A DNA stretch of 13,340 nt from positions 1 to 13,340 of the forward strand of contig PWOD01000018.1 of assembly GCA_003557545.1 (NCBI GenBank), read 5' to 3'. Shown here in pieces: positions 2 to 13,069 of this stretch; the stretch's first letter is position 1, and each line of letters begins with the position of its first letter. A program made the position numbers and the translations under genes. The notes beneath the pieces are model-generated. The model worked only from the letters and a program-made list of their open reading frames with translations. It was not told the DNA's origin and did no database searches. Origin of the DNA: a bacterium (GTDB taxonomy: Bacteria; T1Sed10-126).

Positions 2-3000
2 GCCGGCGCCCGGGTAGAAAACTTACAGTTAACTGATCTACAGCTGCGGGCCGATCAGCTGCTGGGAACTCTGGCCGGAGTCAATGCGGGTGAGATAGTT
101 AACCTGCAGGTAAGTCAGGCCGATCTGCGGGGTGGGCGGTATGCCGGTGGAGAGGATCGCTATATCGGGGGGATAGCCGGGGACAACAGCGGACTGATCA
201 AGCTCAGCAGTTTCACCGGTCAGCTGCGGGGAGAATACCGGGTGGGAGGAATCAGCGGAGGCAATTCCGGGACAATCACTAACAGCTACAGCCGGGGAGC
301 TATTGAAGCGCTTGCGGAGGCCGGCGGGTTAGTTGGCCGGCAGAGTGGTGGTGTAGTTGAGCAGAGCCTGGGGCTGGTTGAGTTAAAGGTTGATGCAGCA
401 GCCGGGGGTGCAGTTGGCAGCCGGGTGGGTGGAGTTGTCGAGGAGGTCTTCTGGGACGTGGAGCTGTCCGGTGAGTCGCAAAGTGCTGGTGGAGTGGGAT
501 TAACTACCCGGCAGCTGCGTGATTTAGCCACCTACAGTGGAGCCGGTTGGTCGATTGAAGCCAGCGCTATTGAGTATAATGATGGCTATCCATATCTGTC
601 GGGAGAGACAGCCCCGGTCTGGCAGATTTCGGTCTACCTGGAGTTAGAGATTATCGGTGAGGGTGTGGTGCTGATTAATGGTGAGACCTACGTCGAGCCG
701 CTGCAGGTTGATCCACAACAGCCACTGCTGGTTGAGGCGATCTCCGGCTCAGCCTGGGAGTTTGGCGGCTGGTCGGGTGATTTGACCGGTGCGGACAGCA
801 GCGTGGAGTTAACTGTTGAGCGGGACAAATTAATTACAGCTGAGTTTACCGGAATTACTCATCAGCTGGCGGCTGAGATTATCGGCAGTGGAGAACTGCT
901 GATTGATGGGACAGCTTATACCGATACGCTGGTGCTGCTTACCGGCAGCACGGTAGCGCTGGAGGTGGTGGCTGATCAGTATTACAGCTTCAGTCAGTGG
1001 GATGCTGATCTGGTTGGCAGTGATACGGCACTTGAGCTGCTGGTGGATGAGGATAAGTTGATCGTGGCTAAATTCAGCCGGGACAGCCATAGCCTGGAGA
1101 TTACTGTGGAGGGTCCGGGCCGGGTGGAGGTTAACGGTGAGACCTACGTCGGGCCGCTGCAGCTGGCGGCGGGTGAGACGCTGGGGCTGGCCGCCGAGCT
1201 GTTGAACCCGGTTTATAGGTTTGACGGCTGGTCGGGCGATATCGATAATCCGGCGAAGACCTTCAGTCTGCTGATTGAGCAGGACCTGCAGCTGACGGCA
1301 CCGTTTGTCCCAAACTTTGCCGGGGGCGAGGGAACACAGCTCTCTCCCTATGAGATTACAACCTGGGAGCATCTGCACAGCGTCCGGGGTTTCCCTCAAG
1401 CCCATTTCAAACTGACCGATGATCTGGACAGCACCAGCATTGGTTATCATCAGCTGGCCTCGGAGACCGCCAACGGTGGAGCCGGCTGGCTGCCAGTCGG
1501 TGACGAGGACGACCCCTTTGCCGGGCAGTTTGATGGAGCCGGCAGGACGATTGCCGGTCTGTATATCAACCGGCCGGACAGCGATTATATCGGACTGTTC
1601 GGGGTGAGCTCGGCTGGTTGTACTGTAGAGAATGTAGGGCTTACGGGGGTGGAGATAATAGGAGCAGAATATACTGGAGGTCTGTTAGGAAAAAATTCTG
1701 GAACCATAAAAAACTCTTATGTGACCGGTCAGATCTCCGGGACTGATCGTGTTGGTGGATTGGTTGGTTACAATTATTTGGGCAATTTAGTTACCAATTC
1801 CTACACCATAGTTGAGCTTGTTGGATTGAATGATGTGGGTGGATTGATTGGTTATAATCATCGAGGTAGGGTCGTGGAAAATAGTTATGCTACCGGGGAT
1901 ATCAGGGGAGAAAATAGGGTTGGCGGGTTGATTGGTAATAACTACCGCGGTGGACAGATAGCCAATTCTTATGCAACAGGAAATGTTGATGGACAAAATA
2001 GGGTGGGTGGGCTGATAGGATACAATCATCCCAATGTATCGGTTGTGAATTGTTATGCAGCCGGTGTGGTTACCGGGGTCAAGGAGGTTGGTGGTCTGGT
2101 CGGTGTTCTTGGTTCTGATGGAATAGTTGAGGATTCATATGCAACCGGTGAGGTGAGTGGTGAAACAACTGTAGGTGGACTGGTGGGCTTTAACTGGTTT
2201 GGAAAGGTGTTCGGTTCATCTGCTTCAGGAACAGTTCTTGGAGTTGATAATACCGGTGGTTTGGTGGGATGGAATCGTGAAGGTAAGGTGAGTTTTTCTT
2301 ATTCAGAAGCAAAAACTACCGGTGGTAATAGAGTCGGTGGTCTGGTTGGATTTAATGATTTGAAAGGATCGATAGATCATTCGTATGCAAGTATGGATGT
2401 CACAGGTAGTCAGGACGTCGGTGGGCTTGCCGGGCGGAATGAGGGGAAGATTTCAACTGCTTACTCACGGGGTTATGTTGATGGTAAAACGGGAGCGGGA
2501 GGTCTGGTGGGAGCAGGTTCCGGTCGGGTGACGGGAAGTTTTTGGAACATGGAAACTTCAGGTCTTGTTTTCAGCAAGGGAGGGGAGGGAAGAACCAGTT
2601 CGGAAATGCATAACATTCATACTTATCTTGATGAAAGGTGGAATATAGAACTTATTTCTGAAGATCATAATGATGGATATCCTTTTCTTGAGGGAAAGGC
2701 CGGTGAAAGTTTAAAAACCTGGTATATAGCTGATGAAGAACATGCCGGACTGATGGATGTGGCCGACCAGTTAGAGGAAGTTTTTTCATATCCTAATCCC
2801 TACAGGGCTGATATGAATAGCGTTATCTATTTTATTGTTCCACCAAATTATGGAGAATGGATAACTCTCAGTATTTATGAAATAAGTGGACGTCAGAGGT
2901 TTAAAAAAGATTATTTTGTTGGAATCGGCTCCGCGAGGCTGATAAGCTGGGAACCAGAGCTTGCTTCAGGAACCTATATTTACCTGATAAAAGGTGATGG

Positions 3001-3037
3001 ACAGTCAGTTTCCAGTACCTTTACCATTATCAGATAA
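2..3037 (+). CDS. Large GLUG / InlB-B-like repeat surface protein, C-terminal part (5' end outside the window)
   Basis: The frame is open from the first complete codon at bp 2, so the gene begins upstream; the GTG at 242 is only an internal codon. About 1011 residues are visible. They comprise a GLUG-type glycine-rich block (bp 2-600) closed by a cap module (FWDVE at 449, NDGYPYL at 578), then three InlB-B-like repeats (632-853, 854-1084, 1085-1312) with GWSGD or related cores. A second GLUG block follows, with a head (FAGGEGTQLSPY) and about eleven VGGLxGxN repeats (about 1661-2540), closed by the same cap type (FWNME at 2540, NDGYPFL at 2669). Last is a domain of about 82 residues starting YPNPY (2789) and ending GTYIYLIKG...STFTIIR, resembling FlgD-Ig or type IX secretion sorting domains. 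GLUG repeats are known in surface and adhesin-like proteins; a beta-helical adhesin is my inference. Base composition falls sharply near 1640. A weak terminator overlaps the stop codon. Confidence 0.85.
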   Translation, partial: AGARVENLQLTDLQLRADQLLGTLAGVNAGEIVNLQVSQADLRGGRYAGGEDRYIGGIAGDNSGLIKLSSFTGQLRGEYRVGGISGGNSGTITNSYSRGAIEALAEAGGLVGRQSGGVVEQSLGLVELKVDAAAGGAVGSRVGGVVEEVFWDVELSGESQSAGGVGLTTRQLRDLATYSGAGWSIEASAIEYNDGYPYLSGETAPVWQISVYLELEIIGEGVVLINGETYVEPLQVDPQQPLLVEAISGSAWEFGGWSGDLTGADSSVELTVERDKLITAEFTGITHQLAAEIIGSGELLIDGTAYTDTLVLLTGSTVALEVVADQYYSFSQWDADLVGSDTALELLVDEDKLIVAKFSRDSHSLEITVEGPGRVEVNGETYVGPLQLAAGETLGLAAELLNPVYRFDGWSGDIDNPAKTFSLLIEQDLQLTAPFVPNFAGGEGTQLSPYEITTWEHLHSVRGFPQAHFKLTDDLDSTSIGYHQLASETANGGAGWLPVGDEDDPFAGQFDGAGRTIAGLYINRPDSDYIGLFGVSSAGCTVENVGLTGVEIIGAEYTGGLLGKNSGTIKNSYVTGQISGTDRVGGLVGYNYLGNLVTNSYTIVELVGLNDVGGLIGYNHRGRVVENSYATGDIRGENRVGGLIGNNYRGGQIANSYATGNVDGQNRVGGLIGYNHPNVSVVNCYAAGVVTGVKEVGGLVGVLGSDGIVEDSYATGEVSGETTVGGLVGFNWFGKVFGSSASGTVLGVDNTGGLVGWNREGKVSFSYSEAKTTGGNRVGGLVGFNDLKGSIDHSYASMDVTGSQDVGGLAGRNEGKISTAYSRGYVDGKTGAGGLVGAGSGRVTGSFWNMETSGLVFSKGGEGRTSSEMHNIHTYLDERWNIELISEDHNDGYPFLEGKAGESLKTWYIADEEHAGLMDVADQLEEVFSYPNPYRADMNSVIYFIVPPNYGEWITLSIYEISGRQRFKKDYFVGIGSARLISWEPELASGTYIYLIKGDGQSVSSTFTIIR
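680..706 (+). repeat. Direct DNA repeat in InlB-B-like repeats, copy 1
   Basis: These 27 bases encode GETYVEPLQ in the first InlB-B-like repeat. They recur with one mismatch (A696 versus G1152) at 1136-1162 in the third repeat. The 456-bp offset equals 152 codons, or two repeat units. The middle repeat has diverged at this place (GTAYTDTLV), so repeats 1 and 3 are the closest pair here. Confidence 0.8.
1136..1162 (+). repeat. Direct DNA repeat in InlB-B-like repeats, copy 2
   Basis: This is the second copy of the 27-base repeat at 680-706, with a single mismatch, encoding GETYVGPLQ. The near-identity at DNA level indicates recent duplication or gene conversion within the surface-protein gene, or shared constraint on the protein motif. 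Confidence 0.8.
1661..2540 (+). repeat. Tandem array of about eleven GLUG repeats (coding)
   Basis: A protein-level tandem array lies inside the surface-protein gene, with a period of about 25-30 residues. Each unit carries a core such as GGLLGKN, GGLVGYN, GGLIGYN, GGLIGNN, GGLVGFN or GGLVGWN, often followed by a serine-tyrosine-alanine segment (NSYATG and similar). At DNA level the core recurs as variants of GGTGGATTGGTTGGTTA, for example near 1754 and 1838. Copies are diverged rather than identical. Confidence 0.75.
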
Positions 3038-3058
3038 TTAACCAGGATAATTATTTTT
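3034..3058 (+). terminator. Weak intrinsic terminator after the surface-protein gene
   Basis: ATAATTA (3034-3040) and TAATTAT (3048-3054) form a perfect 7-bp stem with a 7-base loop, followed by a run of T (3054-3058). The stem is entirely A/T and therefore weak. It includes the TAA stop codon at 3035-3037. Position and T-run fit a terminator; stability argues for a leaky one. Confidence 0.35.
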
Positions 3059-3117
3059 CTAAAAAAGTTAGCCGGGTATTTTGCAACTGAGTTTTCTTCT
3101 ATCAATCACAATCCGTT

Positions 3118-3139
3118 TCAAGCAACTATTATTGCTTGA
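3118..3139. repeat. Perfect 8-bp inverted repeat upstream of the GVQLG-repeat gene promoter
   Basis: TCAAGCAA (3118-3125) and TTGCTTGA (3132-3139) are perfect inverted repeats around a 6-base spacer, CTATTA. The element ends 18 bases upstream of the predicted -35 box at 3158. No T-run follows on either strand, so it does not look like a terminator. It could be an operator for a dimeric regulator, but only one copy is visible and this is inference. Confidence 0.4.
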
Positions 3140-3157
3140 TAAAAAACTCTTGGGGGG

Positions 3158-3185
3158 TTGACTGGAGGGCTGGTGATGGCATAAT
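3158..3185 (+). promoter_or_regulatory. Predicted sigma70-type promoter for the GVQLG-repeat protein
   Basis: The -35 box is TTGACT (3158-3163), followed by a 16-base spacer and a -10 box CATAAT (3180-3185), each one mismatch from consensus. Transcription would begin near 3192 and leave a short leader containing the GGAGGTG ribosome binding site at 3212-3218. Confidence 0.6.
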
Positions 3186-3224
3186 AGTGTTGTGATTAAC
3201 CAATAACATTTGGAGGTGTTGTAG

Positions 3225-3800
3225 ATGAAAAAGATTAGTTTGATCGCTCTTATTTTGTTTCTATTTAGTCTATCGGCAGGGGTGGTCCTGGCGGATAGTC
3301 CTGAAGCTACCGGTGAATCCTGGTTAGGAATTGCAATTTTCAATCCGATTCAATACCCTGACCAGTCTTTTTCTATCAGAGGAGTTCGCTTAAATGCTAT
3401 CTACGCAGTCAATCAAGATTTGATAGGGATTGATTATGGTGTTTTGTTTCCGTTCAATTATCTGCGGGGTGATTTAACCGGTGTACAGCTTGGTATTTAC
3501 AATGAAGTTGGTAATAAAGCCACCGGACTTCAGTGGGGTCTTGCAAACAACACAAAAGGTGATATGTCAGGTGTTCAACTTGGCCTGGCTAATTTTTCCG
3601 ATGGTTATCAGAAGGGGGTACAACTGGGTTTCTGGAATGAAGCCGATCATATTTCAGGGTTGCAGTTGGGTTTTATAAACAAGACCCGGTCTCTTTATGG
3701 AGTTCAGCTGGGACTTTTTAATATGAAACAGGAACTGGGGCCCGGGATTCCTAAATCTTTCCCCATGCGAGGGTTTCCGATAATCAACTGGACATTTTAA
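3225..3800 (+). CDS. Exported GVQLG-repeat protein (LA_2272-like surface repeat family)
   Basis: This is a 191-residue protein starting at ATG, six bases after a perfect GGAGGTG. Residues 1-23 form a signal peptide (MKK, hydrophobic core, cleavage after VLA|D). The mature part holds about six repeats of roughly 20 residues with cores GVQLGIYN, GLQWGLAN, GVQLGLAN, GVQLGFWN, GLQLGFIN and GVQLGLFN. The end is FPIINWTF, a terminus resembling those I recall for the family. The repeat style matches LA_2272-type surface repeat proteins described from Leptospira and other diderms; their biochemical role is not established. The gene has its own promoter (3158-3185) and is followed by a strong hairpin, so it is probably monocistronic. 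Localisation in the periplasm or outer membrane is inferred from the signal peptide and aromatic C-terminus. Confidence 0.85.
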   Translation: MKKISLIALILFLFSLSAGVVLADSPEATGESWLGIAIFNPIQYPDQSFSIRGVRLNAIYAVNQDLIGIDYGVLFPFNYLRGDLTGVQLGIYNEVGNKATGLQWGLANNTKGDMSGVQLGLANFSDGYQKGVQLGFWNEADHISGLQLGFINKTRSLYGVQLGLFNMKQELGPGIPKSFPMRGFPIINWTF

Positions 3801-3823
3801 TAATCAGTTGGATAATCTTTCTC

Positions 3824-3859
3824 CAGGCGCGAGACCCGGGTAATCGGGTCTCTCGCCTG
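3824..3859 (+). terminator. Strong GC-rich hairpin after the GVQLG-repeat gene
   Basis: The arms are CAGGCG-C-GAGACCCG (3824-3838) and CGGGTCTC-T-CGCCTG (3845-3859). They give 14 base pairs with one C/T mismatch around a 6-base loop. It lies 23 bases past the stop codon, as expected of a terminator. The bases that follow are TAAAAATC, so there is no U-run on the + strand, and none appears on the - strand either. It may be a terminator without U-run, a 3'-end stabilising hairpin, or an element upstream of the nuclease operon. Confidence 0.55.
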
Positions 3860-3867
3860 TAAAAATC

Positions 3868-3876
3868 TGCTATATT
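3868..3876 (+). promoter_or_regulatory. Candidate extended -10 promoter for the nuclease/ATPase operon
   Basis: TGCTATATT (3868-3876) matches an extended -10 box (TGnTATAAT) with one mismatch in the hexamer. No recognisable -35 box sits 16-18 bases upstream, where the right arm of the hairpin lies. Start of transcription near 3883 would leave about 70 bases of leader. Confidence 0.3.
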
Positions 3877-3952
3877 TTAATATCATGGTTAATTTTAACG
3901 ATCAGTACCTTCATATGACTCTTTCTGTGGAAAAAATCATTACAAGGGGTGG

Positions 3953-5254
3953 GTGGTTTATCTTTTGAATGATGATTTATCGTTAATTGTATGTGGTGAT
4001 TTACATCTTGGCCGCCATCCTTCCGGTATAGATTCCCGACATGACAAAATTGATTTTTCTCCCCGTAAAATCTGGCAAAAAATTGTTATGGAAGCCTGTG
4101 GTGAAGAGCTTGACGCAGTAGTTATTACCGGGGACCTTGTGGATCGAGAAAACTCGTTTTATGAGGCTTGGGGCCCCTTTGAAGAGGGTTTGAGAAAACT
4201 GAACCAGAGGGCGATTCCGGTTATTGTTGTGGCTGGCAATCATGATGCCCAACTGCTGGAGGGTTTTGTCGATTCGTTAAGTCTGGAGAATCTTCATTTA
4301 TTAGGGAAAAATGGTTGTTGGGAGCGATTTCCTCTGGAAAGAGAGGGGAAGGTGATTGCCTATTTTGACGGTTGGTCATATCCGTTTCGAGAAGTTCGGG
4401 AAAACCCTCTTGATGATTATGATTTTCCACTGGCAGAACCGCCGGTTTTTGCTGTTTTACATACCGAGTTAGATAAAGCGGGCAGCAGCTATGCTCCTGT
4501 ATATAGCAGTCAATTAAAACAGACAAACTGTTGCGCATGGTTTCTTGGACACATTCATAAACCACAGCTTCATAATCAAACTCCGTTGATTTTAAATCCA
4601 GGTTCTCCACAGCCTTTAAATCCTACGGAGGTCGGTTTGCATGGACCCTGGCGGGTGGATTTGAAAAACTCTGGTCGGATTGACTGTAAACAGCTATCCC
4701 TGTCTAATCTTCGTTATATCTCTGTTGAAATCGATGCCGGTCAGCTGAAATCTCTCCAGTCGGTGCCGGAGTTGTTAAAAAATAGGATTGCAAAAAAATT
4801 AGAGCGACCATTGACAGGTCTTGAATTGCTCTCATGTCGCGTTAAATTTACTGGAAGAACGGAGTTTTATCAGGACTTGAAAAACCAGTTAAAAAATATT
4901 CTGAGTAGCCTGGAATTAAAGATAGAAACTTTACCGGTCAATATTGAAAAAATTATCGATCAGACCCTTCCGCCTGTTGACCTGGAAAAACTTAAAGATA
5001 AGAGCGGCCCGGTGGGGATTTTAGCCGAGTTTATTTTGCAACTTGATGATCCACAATTTTCAGTTCCTGAGCAGCTGCTTGAAAAGATTCTTCTGATAAT
5101 GAACGACTCCTATGAAACCAGTACTTACAGGGTTTTGCAGGAGATCGAAAACAGTCCGCCTGTTCCGGTTACAGCCGACCTGGTTCGGGAAAAATTAAAA
5201 CAGCAGGGACTTGAGTTGCTGGAAACTTTACGTCAACAAAAGGAAATTGATTAA
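3953..5254 (+). CDS. SbcD/Mre11-type DNA repair metallophosphoesterase (YhaO-like)
   Basis: This 433-residue protein is a calcineurin-like phosphoesterase of the SbcD/Mre11/YhaO type. All metal motifs are visible: D16-x-H18 (GDLHLG), GDLVD (D61, D64), GNHD (N96-H97-D98), H170 in AVLHTE and GHIH (H200, H202). Residues from about 245 to 433 form the C-terminal cap and ATPase-binding part, which is less conserved. Family enzymes are Mn-dependent nucleases on double-strand ends and act with an SMC-like ATPase, which is the next gene here (one-base overlap, TAATG), so translation is probably coupled. I use the GTG at 3953, but AAGGGG (3944-3949) is only three bases from it. The in-frame TTG at 3965, four codons on, is spaced more normally and may be the true start. 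Its length fits SbcD/YhaO. The YhaO label rests on the partner's YhaN-like design. Confidence 0.9.
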   Translation: MVYLLNDDLSLIVCGDLHLGRHPSGIDSRHDKIDFSPRKIWQKIVMEACGEELDAVVITGDLVDRENSFYEAWGPFEEGLRKLNQRAIPVIVVAGNHDAQLLEGFVDSLSLENLHLLGKNGCWERFPLEREGKVIAYFDGWSYPFREVRENPLDDYDFPLAEPPVFAVLHTELDKAGSSYAPVYSSQLKQTNCCAWFLGHIHKPQLHNQTPLILNPGSPQPLNPTEVGLHGPWRVDLKNSGRIDCKQLSLSNLRYISVEIDAGQLKSLQSVPELLKNRIAKKLERPLTGLELLSCRVKFTGRTEFYQDLKNQLKNILSSLELKIETLPVNIEKIIDQTLPPVDLEKLKDKSGPVGILAEFILQLDDPQFSVPEQLLEKILLIMNDSYETSTYRVLQEIENSPPVPVTADLVREKLKQQGLELLETLRQQKEID

Positions 5255-8200
5255 TGGCAGATAAAAAGCTTTATCCGATTGTAGTTGTTCAGTCGATTGA
5301 GGTTAAAAAATCTCTTGGAATTGATCGCCCCGGGATTAAGCTGGATGGTCTGACTAACGGGGTTAACATAATTCATGGACCTAATGCAGCAGGTAAAACC
5401 ACTCTTGCCCGAACTTTTAATGCTCTTTTTTGGCCTGAAACAGTTCCGCCAGGCTCTATTTTAAGTGGACAATTTAAAATCGGTGGTGAGGGATGGGCGG
5501 TTAGCTTAGAGCATCATAATGCTGTTTATCAACGGGAGGGGAAAAGAGTACCCGCACCCGGATTTGCACCGGTAGAATTCAAAGATCGCTATAATTTAGC
5601 ACTTCATCAGTTACTTCAGACCGAAACTAAAAATAAAGATTTCGCCAGTTTGATAGTCCGGGAGCTGGCTGGTGGGTACGATATTTCAGAAGCAGTTGAA
5701 AAACTTCAGTTTAAAGAAAGAGTTTCTGGTTTTGGGAATAAAACTCAAGCTTTAAAACAGGCAGTGGCGAGTTATGGTGAAGCCAAAAATAGTGTGCTGA
5801 CTGTTGAAGAGGATGCCAGGAAATTGGAAAAGCTCAAACGCCAGCGAAGGGAGGCGGTTAATGCCCGGAATCAGCAGGAGATTTTGAAACAGCTTTTACA
5901 GTGGAAAAAAGCCCGGCAGAAGGTTGAAAAAAATCAGGGAAAATTGAAAAAATATCCAGATGTAATGGATAAACTGGTTGGAAACGAGCAGGAACAACTT
6001 GATAAATTGGATGAAAAAATTACTCGCCAGAATGAGCAACTGGAAAAAACTTCGATAGAAATATCACAACTTGAGGAAAAAATCGATAAAGTCATCTATC
6101 CGTTTGACGAAATCCGGTTAGATTATCTGCCTGTTCAGCAGTCGCGGGTCGAGCAGTTGGAAAAGTTAGAAGAAAGGCTGGATAAATTTGGTCTGGAGGA
6201 AGCCAGCTACCTTAAACAGATTGATTCCTATGAAAAAAAATTGGGCGTTCTGTCCAGCTTTGACAAACTTGGCAGGATAGACAGCTCTGTTTTGATAAAA
6301 ACCGCCAAACTGGCCAGTGAGTATGAGAAACTGCAGGCCGAGCTGAGTTCTCTTGAGAAGTTAAAGGAGTTGTTTGCATCCACTGGAAAAACTCTTAATA
6401 ATGAATTCCAGAGGGGTTGCCAGGCTCTGCAAAACTGGCTGTCCAATCCGCCCCAAAAAAGCTCCAAAATTTCAATTATTACTCATCTTAATCTGCTGCT
6501 GGTTGCCGGTTTGACAATATTATTGTCCTCTTTCTGGCATCCCGGGCTATTGCTTGGTTTGTTTTACCCGGTTGTTTATTATCTGTATTGTTTTTTGGGC
6601 AAATTTCGATCTTCAGCCGATCCCAGGATCATATTTCAGGCTGAATATGAAGCATTAGAATTGCCCTTTTCGCCAGCTGAATGGACAGATTGTGAAGTGC
6701 GCAATTTACTTCGTAGAATTTATGATGAAATTGCCAGACAGACTGTTCAAATTAAATTTAATGAGACCTGGAAAAATTATCAGGCTCGTTACCAGAATTT
6801 GCTTGAGCAGCAACAGATTTTCCAGCAACAACATCAACTGCTCATAGAAAAGTATGGTTTTCCGGCTGAAATCGATAGTCGTAATCTCCACTGGCAGTTA
6901 GAGAAGTTAACTAAATGGCAGGAGGCTCGGGCGAAGCTGGAAGGTATCCGTGAGATGATAAAAATATCGGCTCAGAAACGCGCAGAAATAATTAACGAAT
7001 TGAATTCACAGTTTGAACTATGGAGATTGGATAAGGCGGTTGATTTTAGTACTGCCCGCGGAAATATTCAAGTTATGGAAATAACTACGGAAAAATTCGA
7101 TCGGTTAACTGGACAGCTTCATCAGGCCTGGAAGGATCGGCGAAGAACTATCGCCCATCTGGCTGAAACCGTCAGGGAGCGGCACTCTATTTTTGAACGG
7201 TTTGAGTTGACCCCGGATAAACAGTCGGAGTTAGTGGAATTAATCGAACAGTATTCGGAGTATAAAAATCAGCGGGAAGAATTAAATCAGGCCCGGGGTA
7301 CTTTGCGCGCCGAAGAACAGCGGTTGGAGGAGCTGGAAGGGTTGGACAGCCAGTTGAAAGAGCAATCGGTTGAACGGTTAGAAAAACAACTTGAACAGTA
7401 CAGCAAAGCGGCAGAACAATTTGACGAGATAAATGAGCGTGTAATAAAAATAGAAAATGCTATTGAGGGAGTTAAATCTGGATATGAAATCGAACCCTCC
7501 CTGGCTCAATTGGAACGGGCCCGGTCCAGCCTTGTCAGCCAGTTGGACGAGGATTGGGATAAGCTGGTGGGGCATCAGTTGGCTGGCTACATAGAGAGAA
7601 TTAACAGTGTGCAACAGATGCCGCCAGTTTTTCAAACTGCTCGCTTGATTTTGCTGAAAATTAGTGGTCAGAGGTATAAACTGGTGTTGCATGAAGCAAC
7701 GGATGAGTTTGAGGTTGTTGACCGTAAAACCGAAAAACTTTTAACTCTTGATCAGCTGTCCAGTGGGACCAGGATTCAGCTTTTGCTGGCGGTCAGACTG
7801 GCTTTTGTTCAGCATGGGGAAAGTCATTTTAAGCTACCTCTGTATATGGATGAAACACTGGCTAATGCGGATGATTTAAGAGCTCGCTGGATAATTAGTT
7901 CGATCTTCAATCTGGTTGAGGATGGCAGACAACTGTTCTATTTTACAGCCCGGGGTGATGAGGTTGCAAAATGGCGGGCTATAGCTGACGAAAAAAAACA
8001 GCCGCTCAACATAATCGATTTAACCCGCAGCAGTTCGGCTGAGTTTACAGGTCGAGTAGAAATACCGGGAAAGGTGGACTTTGATATTGTCAAACCGTCC
8101 CTGCCACCGGTTGAGGGGTCTACCCACGCTGAGTATGGCAAGCAGCTTAAGCTGCCGCCGCTTGATCTGTTTGGGGAGCCGTCGGGGATCCATCTCTGGT

Positions 8201-8718
8201 ATTTAGTTGAGGATACCGGAGTGCTGGTGAAGCTTTTAGAGCAGGGTATAGATAGCGTGGGGCAACTGGAAAATCTACTTGAATTAACCGGTAACAAATT
8301 GTTTGGGAAAGATAATCGCGATCTGACCGGAGAGCTTATGGAACTGGTTAAAGCCCTTAAACTTTATATTAAATATGTTCGGCAGGGAAAAAATCAGCCG
8401 ATAGATCGGATTGTGCTTCAAAACTCAGGTGCAGTAAGTGAGCGGTTTATCGATCAACTATCAGACCTGGCTGAAAGAGTGGAATGGAATCCTGCAAGGC
8501 TGCTTGAGCAGTTGGAAACCGGTAAAATTAAAGGATTTTTAAGCCGTAAAATTAACGATCTGGAGAGTTTTTTGCTGAAACAGGGTTATATTGACCGCCG
8601 TAAACCGCTGTCACGGGAGATTATCAGGGCTGCAATCATGGCTGAATTGGATGAAACAAAAATTCCAGATTTAGAAGATAAAATCGAGCGGATGATAAAA
8701 AGATTGACGACCCGGTGA
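5254..8718 (+). CDS. SbcC/YhaN-type AAA (ABC-class) ATPase with mid-coil hydrophobic hairpin and C-terminal extension
   Basis: This is a 1154-residue partner of the upstream nuclease. Its ATG overlaps the nuclease stop and AGGA lies at 5241-5244. Walker A is GPNAAGKTT (residues 42-50). Coiled-coil segments run from about 170-330 and 555-780. The ABC signature LSSGTR begins at residue 835, and Walker B is LYMDE with D866 and E867. At the usual His-switch position the sequence reads FTARGD (R900), with no histidine. Residues about 410-450 are strongly hydrophobic, like two membrane helices with a short turn, and lie within the coil where Rad50 has its CxxC zinc hook. No CxxC is seen; a hydrophobic middle is a feature I associate with YhaN-type proteins. 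After the ATPase head an extension of about 240 residues (915-1154) has no obvious family; residues 979-1010 look loosely helix-hairpin-helix-like. The role is inferred to be DNA-end processing with the nuclease. Confidence 0.88.
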   Translation: MADKKLYPIVVVQSIEVKKSLGIDRPGIKLDGLTNGVNIIHGPNAAGKTTLARTFNALFWPETVPPGSILSGQFKIGGEGWAVSLEHHNAVYQREGKRVPAPGFAPVEFKDRYNLALHQLLQTETKNKDFASLIVRELAGGYDISEAVEKLQFKERVSGFGNKTQALKQAVASYGEAKNSVLTVEEDARKLEKLKRQRREAVNARNQQEILKQLLQWKKARQKVEKNQGKLKKYPDVMDKLVGNEQEQLDKLDEKITRQNEQLEKTSIEISQLEEKIDKVIYPFDEIRLDYLPVQQSRVEQLEKLEERLDKFGLEEASYLKQIDSYEKKLGVLSSFDKLGRIDSSVLIKTAKLASEYEKLQAELSSLEKLKELFASTGKTLNNEFQRGCQALQNWLSNPPQKSSKISIITHLNLLLVAGLTILLSSFWHPGLLLGLFYPVVYYLYCFLGKFRSSADPRIIFQAEYEALELPFSPAEWTDCEVRNLLRRIYDEIARQTVQIKFNETWKNYQARYQNLLEQQQIFQQQHQLLIEKYGFPAEIDSRNLHWQLEKLTKWQEARAKLEGIREMIKISAQKRAEIINELNSQFELWRLDKAVDFSTARGNIQVMEITTEKFDRLTGQLHQAWKDRRRTIAHLAETVRERHSIFERFELTPDKQSELVELIEQYSEYKNQREELNQARGTLRAEEQRLEELEGLDSQLKEQSVERLEKQLEQYSKAAEQFDEINERVIKIENAIEGVKSGYEIEPSLAQLERARSSLVSQLDEDWDKLVGHQLAGYIERINSVQQMPPVFQTARLILLKISGQRYKLVLHEATDEFEVVDRKTEKLLTLDQLSSGTRIQLLLAVRLAFVQHGESHFKLPLYMDETLANADDLRARWIISSIFNLVEDGRQLFYFTARGDEVAKWRAIADEKKQPLNIIDLTRSSSAEFTGRVEIPGKVDFDIVKPSLPPVEGSTHAEYGKQLKLPPLDLFGEPSGIHLWYLVEDTGVLVKLLEQGIDSVGQLENLLELTGNKLFGKDNRDLTGELMELVKALKLYIKYVRQGKNQPIDRIVLQNSGAVSERFIDQLSDLAERVEWNPARLLEQLETGKIKGFLSRKINDLESFLLKQGYIDRRKPLSREIIRAAIMAELDETKIPDLEDKIERMIKRLTTR

Positions 8719-10764: not shown

Positions 10765-12354
10765 TTGAAAAAAATTGAAAAGTTGACCGGTAAAATTTTA
10801 GTAAACTTTTTATTAGTTCTGTTTGTTTTTATATCGGGTTGTGCCGAGCCGACTCTTCATTCGGCTGCCGAACGTGGTAATATTGATCAGCTGCAGGAGT
10901 TGTTTCAGGAAGATCCTGAAGCGATCAATCAGCTGGTCGACGGCGAAACGCCGTTACATCGAGCGGTTAAGAACGATCATCTGGAGGTTGTAGAATTTTT
11001 ATTAAAGATGGGTGCCAACCCGGAAAAAACTGATGCATCTGGATGGTTTCCACTGCATCACGCTGCTTATCTGGGCCATGGTCCGATAGCAATCAAACTG
11101 TTAGAAGCCGGTGTAGAGCTCGATCTCCCGACTGAAGATGCCAGTAAATTTACCCCTCTGGGACTGGCTTTGATAAATCGTCAGCCACAGGTGGCCAGGA
11201 TTTTTTGGCAGCAGGGGGCTGAGCCGGCCTGGGAATCGGGGCGATATACACCGCTGCAGATTGCTGCCAGACAGGGATATAGTTCATTGGTTGAAAAATT
11301 TATTGAAGCCGGGGTTGACCCTGATGCCAGCGGTCAAAAGGGTTCGACACCGATTTTTAAAGCTGTTGAGGCTGGTGAATTAAGGGTTGTTGGAATTTTA
11401 CTTGAAGCCGGTGCAGAAATTGAAACCCTTTCTCCGACCGGTGAAACGATTTTGCACCGGGCGGCCCGGGCCGGATCCAGTCAGCTGATAGAGCTGTTTT
11501 TACAAGAAGGTATTTCCGCTGAGCAGGTTGATGATAAGGGGCGTTTGCCGCTGCACTATGCTGCCCGTTCAGGGACTGTTACCGGGCTGGAAAAACTGTT
11601 GAACACTGTCGGTATTTCTTTAAACACCGGGGATAATTATGGACTTACACCGTTACATCATGCTGTTATCGGGGGGCGCTCGGGGATGGTCGAGTTTTTG
11701 TTGAACCAGGATGTAGTGGTTAATTTAGAGGATGGTTCGGGCAAAACAGCTTTACATCATGCTGTTCAGTCACCTGCTAACCTGTCGCTTGTGGAGTTAC
11801 TGTTAGGGGCGGGAGCTAATACTAATGTTACCGATGATGGGGGTAATACACCGCTGCATCATCTGGCTAAAAATTCCGGTTCTGCTGTGATGACACGGCG
11901 TTTATTGAATTTTGAGGCTGAACTTGATGAAACTAATGATACCGGGAAAACTGCAATTTATTATGCTATTATGACAGAAAATTTAAGTCTGGTTAATCAA
12001 TTGTTAGAGAGCCGGGCTTCTGCAGAGATTGAACCTGATAGTGATATGAACTTTTTATTGCGCCGCTCAGGTGATCAGCTATTTTTGGAAGCTGCCCGCC
12101 AGGGACATAGCAAGGCTCTGGAACTACTGTTTAAACTGTTGGATAGTCCGGATAAGGATGCAGCCCTGTTAAATGCTGCAGAATCCGGTGATCTTCGGAG
12201 TTTGGAGCAGTTGTTGGAGTGGGGAGCGGATATAGAGGTTAAGGATAGAAGAGGACGAACGGCGCGAGTGATTGCTCTAAGAACCGGTCATACAGAAGCA
12301 GCTAATTTTCTTGCCGAGCGGGAGTCGGAAGAGGGAAAAGAGGAAGAAGAATAA
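10765..12354 (+). CDS. Ankyrin-repeat lipoprotein
   Basis: This 529-residue protein begins with a lipoprotein signal: basic MKKIEK, a hydrophobic stretch, then lipobox I23-S24-G25-C26. C26 should be lipidated and the mature protein anchored in a membrane. Almost all the rest (about 29-515) is about fourteen to fifteen ankyrin repeats of roughly 33 residues, with cores such as GETPLHRAV, GRLPLHYAA, GLTPLHHAV and GNTPLHHLA. One less regular unit lies around 420-450. The tail is acidic (ESEEGKEEEE). Ankyrin arrays bind proteins; no enzyme domain is visible and the partner is unknown. The start is TTG with AGGG (10751-10754) ten bases upstream; an ATG at 10748 is in another frame and soon stops. 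The residues after the cysteine (A27, E28) give no clear inner-membrane retention signal, so outer-membrane anchoring is possible. Confidence 0.9.
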   Translation: MKKIEKLTGKILVNFLLVLFVFISGCAEPTLHSAAERGNIDQLQELFQEDPEAINQLVDGETPLHRAVKNDHLEVVEFLLKMGANPEKTDASGWFPLHHAAYLGHGPIAIKLLEAGVELDLPTEDASKFTPLGLALINRQPQVARIFWQQGAEPAWESGRYTPLQIAARQGYSSLVEKFIEAGVDPDASGQKGSTPIFKAVEAGELRVVGILLEAGAEIETLSPTGETILHRAARAGSSQLIELFLQEGISAEQVDDKGRLPLHYAARSGTVTGLEKLLNTVGISLNTGDNYGLTPLHHAVIGGRSGMVEFLLNQDVVVNLEDGSGKTALHHAVQSPANLSLVELLLGAGANTNVTDDGGNTPLHHLAKNSGSAVMTRRLLNFEAELDETNDTGKTAIYYAIMTENLSLVNQLLESRASAEIEPDSDMNFLLRRSGDQLFLEAARQGHSKALELLFKLLDSPDKDAALLNAAESGDLRSLEQLLEWGADIEVKDRRGRTARVIALRTGHTEAANFLAERESEEGKEEEE

Positions 12355-12367
12355 GCTGGCTGTTAGT

Positions 12368-13069
12368 TTAGAAGTAGTAGTTGAAGCTTCCGGTGATCGC
12401 CTCGATAGCTCCGGCCTGACCCTCCAGCTCTAAACTCAAATAATCAGTTACATCATATAAGATGCCGGCTGTGGCAGAAAGTCCTGAAAATTTATCAAGT
12501 TCATAACTGGCTTCAGGTCCGTTAGAAAAATCCACTTCACGTCGTGAGTAGAGCAGTCCCGTGTAGGTGTGAAAACTATCTGTTCTGCTTGAACCGTTGC
12601 TGTATGATGTTTGGCGTCCCAATAAAAACCCCAGCTGCCAGTCACTAGTTATTTCTAACTCTCCGGCACCACCCTGTTGATCCTGTTTGTCATGATTGGC
12701 AAAATTCCCGGTTAATTTCATATAGAGATCAGGATCATCCTCGATTAAGAACTGAAATCCCAGCCCCAAAACTTTTCCATCATCAAATGAATCGTCACCA
12801 AACTCTGTGTCAGTTGTGCCAAAAAGACCATAAACTTGAAGCTGTGGTGAAACACGAAAATTTACCCGTAACCCCAGAATCTGGTTGATTAATTCCTGAT
12901 TGTCCAAACTGCTGTCATCGGGAGAAAAATCAGCCCGGCTATAAGAATAAAGAACGGAAAAATCAAACTCCTCTGCGCGGGTATGATCTATTAGTCCCAG
13001 CTGTTGAGAAATAGCAGGTGCTGGGATTAAGCTGCATATTAAGAGCATGGAGAAAAATAATTTAACCAT
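12368..13069 (-). CDS. Small outer-membrane beta-barrel protein
   Basis: This 233-residue protein has a signal peptide (1 to about 21; MVKLFFSMLLICSL, cleavage near APAIS|QQ). The mature part alternates short amphipathic segments rich in aromatic and glycine residues (FDFSVLYSYSRADF, KVLGLGFQFL, WQLGFLLGRQTSY, TYTGLLYSRREVDF, YLSLELEGQAG) with acidic loops. It ends in SFNYYF, with the terminal phenylalanine typical of outer-membrane barrels. Size and pattern suggest eight to ten strands, like OmpA- or OmpW-sized barrels, but I do not recognise a specific family. The ribosome site AAGGAGGG (13076-13083 on the - strand) is six bases from the ATG, and a good promoter lies at 13128-13156. It is convergent with the ankyrin lipoprotein gene; the 13-bp gap has no room for a terminator. 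Confidence 0.82.
   Translation of the reverse strand: MVKLFFSMLLICSLIPAPAISQQLGLIDHTRAEEFDFSVLYSYSRADFSPDDSSLDNQELINQILGLRVNFRVSPQLQVYGLFGTTDTEFGDDSFDDGKVLGLGFQFLIEDDPDLYMKLTGNFANHDKQDQQGGAGELEITSDWQLGFLLGRQTSYSNGSSRTDSFHTYTGLLYSRREVDFSNGPEASYELDKFSGLSATAGILYDVTDYLSLELEGQAGAIEAITGSFNYYF

Follow-up and report, generated by a model that had tools for sequence, protein, structure and literature searches.

The locus analysed here is related to nuclease–ATPase complexes of the Mre11-Rad50 type, in which ATP closes the heads and the nuclease and DNA meet at those heads. SbcD-SbcC belongs with Mre11-Rad50 in combining a nuclease with an SMC-like ATPase, and the YhaO-YhaN pair (Bacillus subtilis type, Pfam AAA_27) is a relative of both. 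The genes for the YhaO calcineurin nuclease and the coiled-coil ATPase YhaN overlap or adjoin, and the ATPase lacks a zinc hook and usually has a hydrophobic segment midway along its chain. We found no paper treating YhaN together with SbcC or Rad50 in the literature searched, the coverage of which is incomplete, so that absence is no proof of novelty. A review of SMC-like immunity leaves YhaN unmentioned (PMC10586767).

The window (the whole stretch of DNA analysed, 13,340 nucleotides) encodes a two-gene nuclease–ATPase pair akin to YhaO/YhaN on its forward strand. The nuclease (3953–5254, 433 residues) is a calcineurin-like protein of the YhaO/SbcD/Mre11 kind, which matches Pfam Metallophos with an E-value of 8.6e-15 and in which the metal-site motifs GDLHLG, GDLVDR, GNHD and GHIH can be read. 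The YhaN-like ATPase (5254–8718, 1154 residues) matches AAA_23 (E-value of 5.2e-9), aligns with full-length homologues at 27–32% identity and retains intact Walker A (GPNAAGKTT), signature (LSSGTR) and Walker B (LPLYMDE) motifs. The nuclease stop codon (TAA, 5252–5254) shares one base with the ATPase start codon (ATG, 5254–5256) in the string TAATG, which suggests a coupled operon. In the middle of the coiled coils, in the position that the zinc hook takes in Rad50, the ATPase has a hydrophobic hairpin (residues 406–449 approximately, 6469–6600, hydropathy peaks of 2.17 and 1.65) and no CxxC motif. In a simple hydropathy scan, 24 of 25 family members showed a hydrophobic stretch near the centre of the chain. 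The genes flanking the pair appear unrelated to it and include a GLUG-repeat/InlB-like protein (242–3037), a 191-residue protein with no Pfam match (3225–3800), a long ankyrin-repeat protein (10765–12354) and a weak outer-membrane barrel match (12368–13069).

We compared the pair to the described systems. Its matches to SbcD-SbcC and Mre11-Rad50 profiles are distant. Unlike SbcC and Rad50, the window ATPase lacks the zinc hook, carries a C-terminal extension and falls far below the curated cut-offs, the best Rad50 equivalog giving 23.6 bits against a cut-off of 700, and the SMC and SbcD models also scored far under theirs. The same genome (G000) encodes, on contig C2, a second Rad50/SbcC-like protein with a CPVC zinc hook (L139), thus the window pair adds to that system and does not replace it. 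The match to AAA_27 is weak (15.5 bits, under the cut-off of 22), whereas four ordinary YhaN-like relatives that we scanned passed, and the window clade lies a long branch apart from ordinary YhaN. The Lamassu ATPase LmuB is likewise SMC-like, and its PADLOC match to the window protein is weak (E-value of 1.4e-7) and mostly coiled coil. However, no LmuA or LmuC genes neighbour the pair, and the window ATPase has the Walker B glutamate, which in LmuB is generally replaced by glutamine (PMC10586767).

The earlier note had described a run of about 240 residues beyond the ATPase head, at 7996–8718, and translation confirms both the run and its coordinates: 7996–8715 encodes residues 915–1154 and a TGA stop codon at 8716–8718 closes the reading frame. 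The segments VKPSLPPVEG, KLPPLDLFGEPSG and LVKLLEQGIDSVGQL lie where they had been placed. From the homologue alignment we refined the boundaries, such that the head ends at about residue 928, a proline-rich linker, as had been proposed for the start of the extension, covers residues 929–956 approximately (8038–8121), and a conserved helical accessory domain occupies the remainder (residues 957–1154 approximately, 8122–8715). Measured as the residues that follow the match to a profile of the C-terminal half-head, the tail is 238 residues in the window protein and 237–274 in every extension-bearing protein, the upper value coming from a plasmid protein whose end is frame-shifted (L044). By contrast, the chain stops 1–34 residues past the head in 24 distinct head-only YhaN-like relatives. 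The tail is 6 residues in a protein annotated by NCBI as YhaN family (L141), 12 in a YhaN-like relative followed by an HD-domain gene (L142) and 25 in the ordinary YhaN-like pair of a sister genome of the window (G001). Hence the region, the presence of which in ordinary YhaN proteins the earlier note had named as evidence against a distinct tail, is absent from them.

The extension aligns with its bacterial and haloarchaeal homologues at 17–33% identity. Between close haloarchaeal orthologues, pN/pS is 0.12–0.28 for the domain, 0.15–0.40 for the linker, 0.18–0.25 for the coiled coils and 0.02–0.10 for the C-terminal half-head. Thus, the domain is under selection about as strong as that on the coiled coils and stronger than that on the linker, the least constrained part of the tail. 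The extension is real and under purifying selection, and the conservation among homologues together with these ratios rules out a chance read-through artefact.

We took the anatomy of the domain from the column information of a 35-row extension alignment (A4). Conserved positions are Y961, H980 followed by W or F at 982, D987 and G1003, and the family motifs are WRxGRGRPV at 1042–1050, GDxxxLL from 1078 and FRxxKxxxLxxxLxxxGYxDxR at 1095–1116. The most informative columns correspond to residues 1042, 980 (H), 961 (Y), 951 (P), 1045 (G), 1046, 1003 (G) and 1078–1079, and the window protein departs from the family at several of these, with V for W at 1042, K for R at 1046 and WN for GD at 1078–1079. 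From the start of the alignment to residue 956 all members have 43–50 residues, 6–23% of them proline. This near-constant linker length, together with the strong conservation at the W/R/G and H/W positions, hints at a fixed surface for interaction. Single-sequence AlphaFold2 models gave pLDDT values of 39.9 (residues 905–1154) and 42.6 (residues 960–1154), and both low-confidence models place nearly all of the chain beyond about residue 980 in helices, in keeping with the predominantly helical region predicted earlier. As these models are poor, it is from conservation that we infer a globular domain.

Searches with the extension against Pfam, NCBIfam, PADLOC, PHROGs and PDB sequences returned no match. 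When 35 homologues were scanned at an E-value of up to 1, no Pfam family was hit by two or more of them. One other YhaN-like protein has an accessory domain fused past its head (L145 from G273, a 1249-residue open reading frame with a tail of 198 residues), but this domain is Pfam DUF4332 (residues 1119–1242), is unrelated to the window extension and sits on another branch of the tree. Thus, tails on YhaN heads evolved at least twice.

Homologues of the extension were found in 36 bacterial genomes and on nine haloarchaeal plasmids. The first search gave two bacterial genomes with matches that run into the extension, and a profile search detected it in 6 of 386 widely sampled genomes. Within the phylum of G025 it is present in 29 of 80 genomes, all 29 belonging to one family of 38 genomes, and it also occurs in G237 and G466, in G207, in G049, in G230 and G474, and in the window genome. 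Since the phylum searches gave disjoint sets of genomes, these represent no fewer than six bacterial groups at phylum level. Among full-length relatives, the nearest come from haloarchaea (about 31% identity across 99% of the protein). A search of plasmid proteins returned ten haloarchaeal records, eight of which match 80% or more of the protein with 27–32% identity, and in all eight of these near-full-length loci a "DNA repair exonuclease" is annotated directly before the ATPase. Scans of genome-contig and viral-contig sets revealed no relatives. A profile of the extension alone hit nothing outside such ATPases in the 386 diverse genomes; genes truncated at the edge of a contig aside, in none of the loci found was the extension detached from such an ATPase.

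The association with a nuclease, raised in the earlier note as a question, is without exception in intact loci (the ATPase gene intact and upstream sequence present), where a homologue of the window nuclease lies directly upstream in 24 of 24. Ordinary YhaN-like relatives also usually have an upstream nuclease; a nuclease partner thus characterises the wider family, to which the extension has been added. The ninth haloarchaeal plasmid (NZ_CP084880.1) has an ATPase remnant (L045, 9854–11191) that consists of the C-terminal half-head and the extension, with no nuclease. Plasmid NZ_CP119813.1 holds two near-identical copies of the pair (L044 and L143), with frame disruptions in the nuclease and head of L143 and near the C-terminus of L044, which could reflect decay or sequencing error. 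An apparent nuclease–ATPase fusion at L143 was rejected, being the frame-disrupted second copy. A further candidate (L056) was dropped as an OLD-like ATPase. In one bacterial family (f25), genes for an AIR-synthase-related protein (about 332 residues) and an HDOD-domain protein (about 300 residues) lie ahead of the nuclease, in the same orientation, at three loci (L079, 1661–3664; L083, 10017–12026; L088, 1559–3530), and open reading frames of like size are seen at two others (L086 and L087). UvrD-helicase and PD-(D/E)XK nuclease genes, which are AddAB-like, lie near the pair on two haloarchaeal plasmids (flanks of L044 and L046).

Three trees, built from the nuclease, from the head and jointly from the nuclease and both half-heads, agree in placing the extension-bearing pairs in one deep clade (joint support of 100/100). 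This clade contains one pair without the extension (L144 from G209, 2951–7008, on a contig that ends 165 bases past the gene), which keeps the nuclease and ATPase, thus the domain is not strictly needed. Its exact placement is left unsure by long branches, and a grouping of all extension-bearing rows without it was not rejected (AU p of 0.59 and 0.46). The window protein groups with the haloarchaeal plasmid proteins in the joint tree (support of 97/95), which suggests either transfer between domains or an old version shared by both. The proposal of a distinct subfamily is therefore solid for the extension-bearing pairs, given one deep clade, the absence of the extension from ordinary YhaN-like proteins and the nuclease in intact loci.

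The analysis establishes the domain, its conservation, its confinement to one branch and its pairing with the nuclease gene; we infer that the two proteins form a complex, that this is anchored in the membrane and processes DNA ends, and that the domain docks or gates, drawing for the mechanism on what is established for Mre11-Rad50. Two ATPase half-heads are joined by coiled coils, the far end of which bears the hydrophobic hairpin in place of the zinc hook and probably inserts into the membrane. The near-constant-length linker leaves the second half-head just past its end and carries the helical domain of about 200 residues, which, so tethered, could reach the nuclease or the head. There the domain may rest, controlling access of DNA or the activity of the nuclease when ATP closes the heads. 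Because the linker begins on the head, beside the site that brings nuclease, ATP and DNA together in complexes of the Mre11-Rad50 type, we favour this docking or gating in cis on a YhaO/YhaN-like head, to which we would give somewhat under an even chance; DNA binding and the recruitment of a third partner are real rivals. We looked in the nuclease for a clade-specific insert that might form a docking site and found none longer than four columns.

The extension could instead recruit a third protein, such as a helicase, a recombinase or a membrane factor, with little effect on the nuclease. The strongly conserved aromatic and arginine positions and the neutral charge would suit such a contact, as would the HDOD and AIR-synthase-related genes that immediately precede the pair in one bacterial family and the UvrD and PD-(D/E)XK genes on the two haloarchaeal plasmids. 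However, no third gene accompanies the pair throughout the groups and the flanks of the window pair look unrelated, so we regard this as unlikely, though worth serious consideration. Similarly doubtful in our estimate is a helix-hairpin-helix-like, DNA-binding domain that gives a second grip on DNA ends, the likeness that the earlier note had drawn. The segment LLEQGIDSVGQL resembles two helices around a GI..VG turn, WRxGRGRPV and FRxxK contain conserved basic positions, and L145, from another lineage, ends in DUF4332, which we take to be a helix-hairpin-helix-containing family. Yet no helix-hairpin-helix family of Pfam matched any of 35 members, DUF4332 does not align with the extension (hhalign probability of 0.3%, with a single sequence on one side), and conservation in the hairpin turn is limited to the second of its two glycines, G1003. 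The net charge of the domain is also neutral to acidic (−1 in the window, −11 to +3 in bacterial members). On these results the likeness is not supported, and the added DNA binding proposed with it is possible but gains no specific support. That the extension is inert, a lineage-specific tail or read-through is very improbable: L144 manages without it, but all other clade members keep it, over very large distances, at near-fixed length and under purifying selection.

The domain of about 200 residues is previously unclassified and marks a distinct nuclease–ATPase branch that spans several bacterial phyla and haloarchaeal plasmids. In a bolder form of the docking or gating reading, which we think decidedly improbable as a whole, the extension would be a new fold acting as a gate on a membrane-anchored nuclease of the Mre11-Rad50 type, and the branch would be a separate DNA-processing or anti-plasmid/anti-virus system common to uncultured bacteria and haloarchaeal plasmids. 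The papers searched contained no experiments on any member of the extension family. The haloarchaeal copies lie on plasmids of cultured organisms, which makes deletion tests practical. YhaN-type complexes are widespread and almost unstudied, and a branch with the added domain beside a sister set without it is a natural experiment on how an accessory domain controls a nuclease at an SMC-like head.
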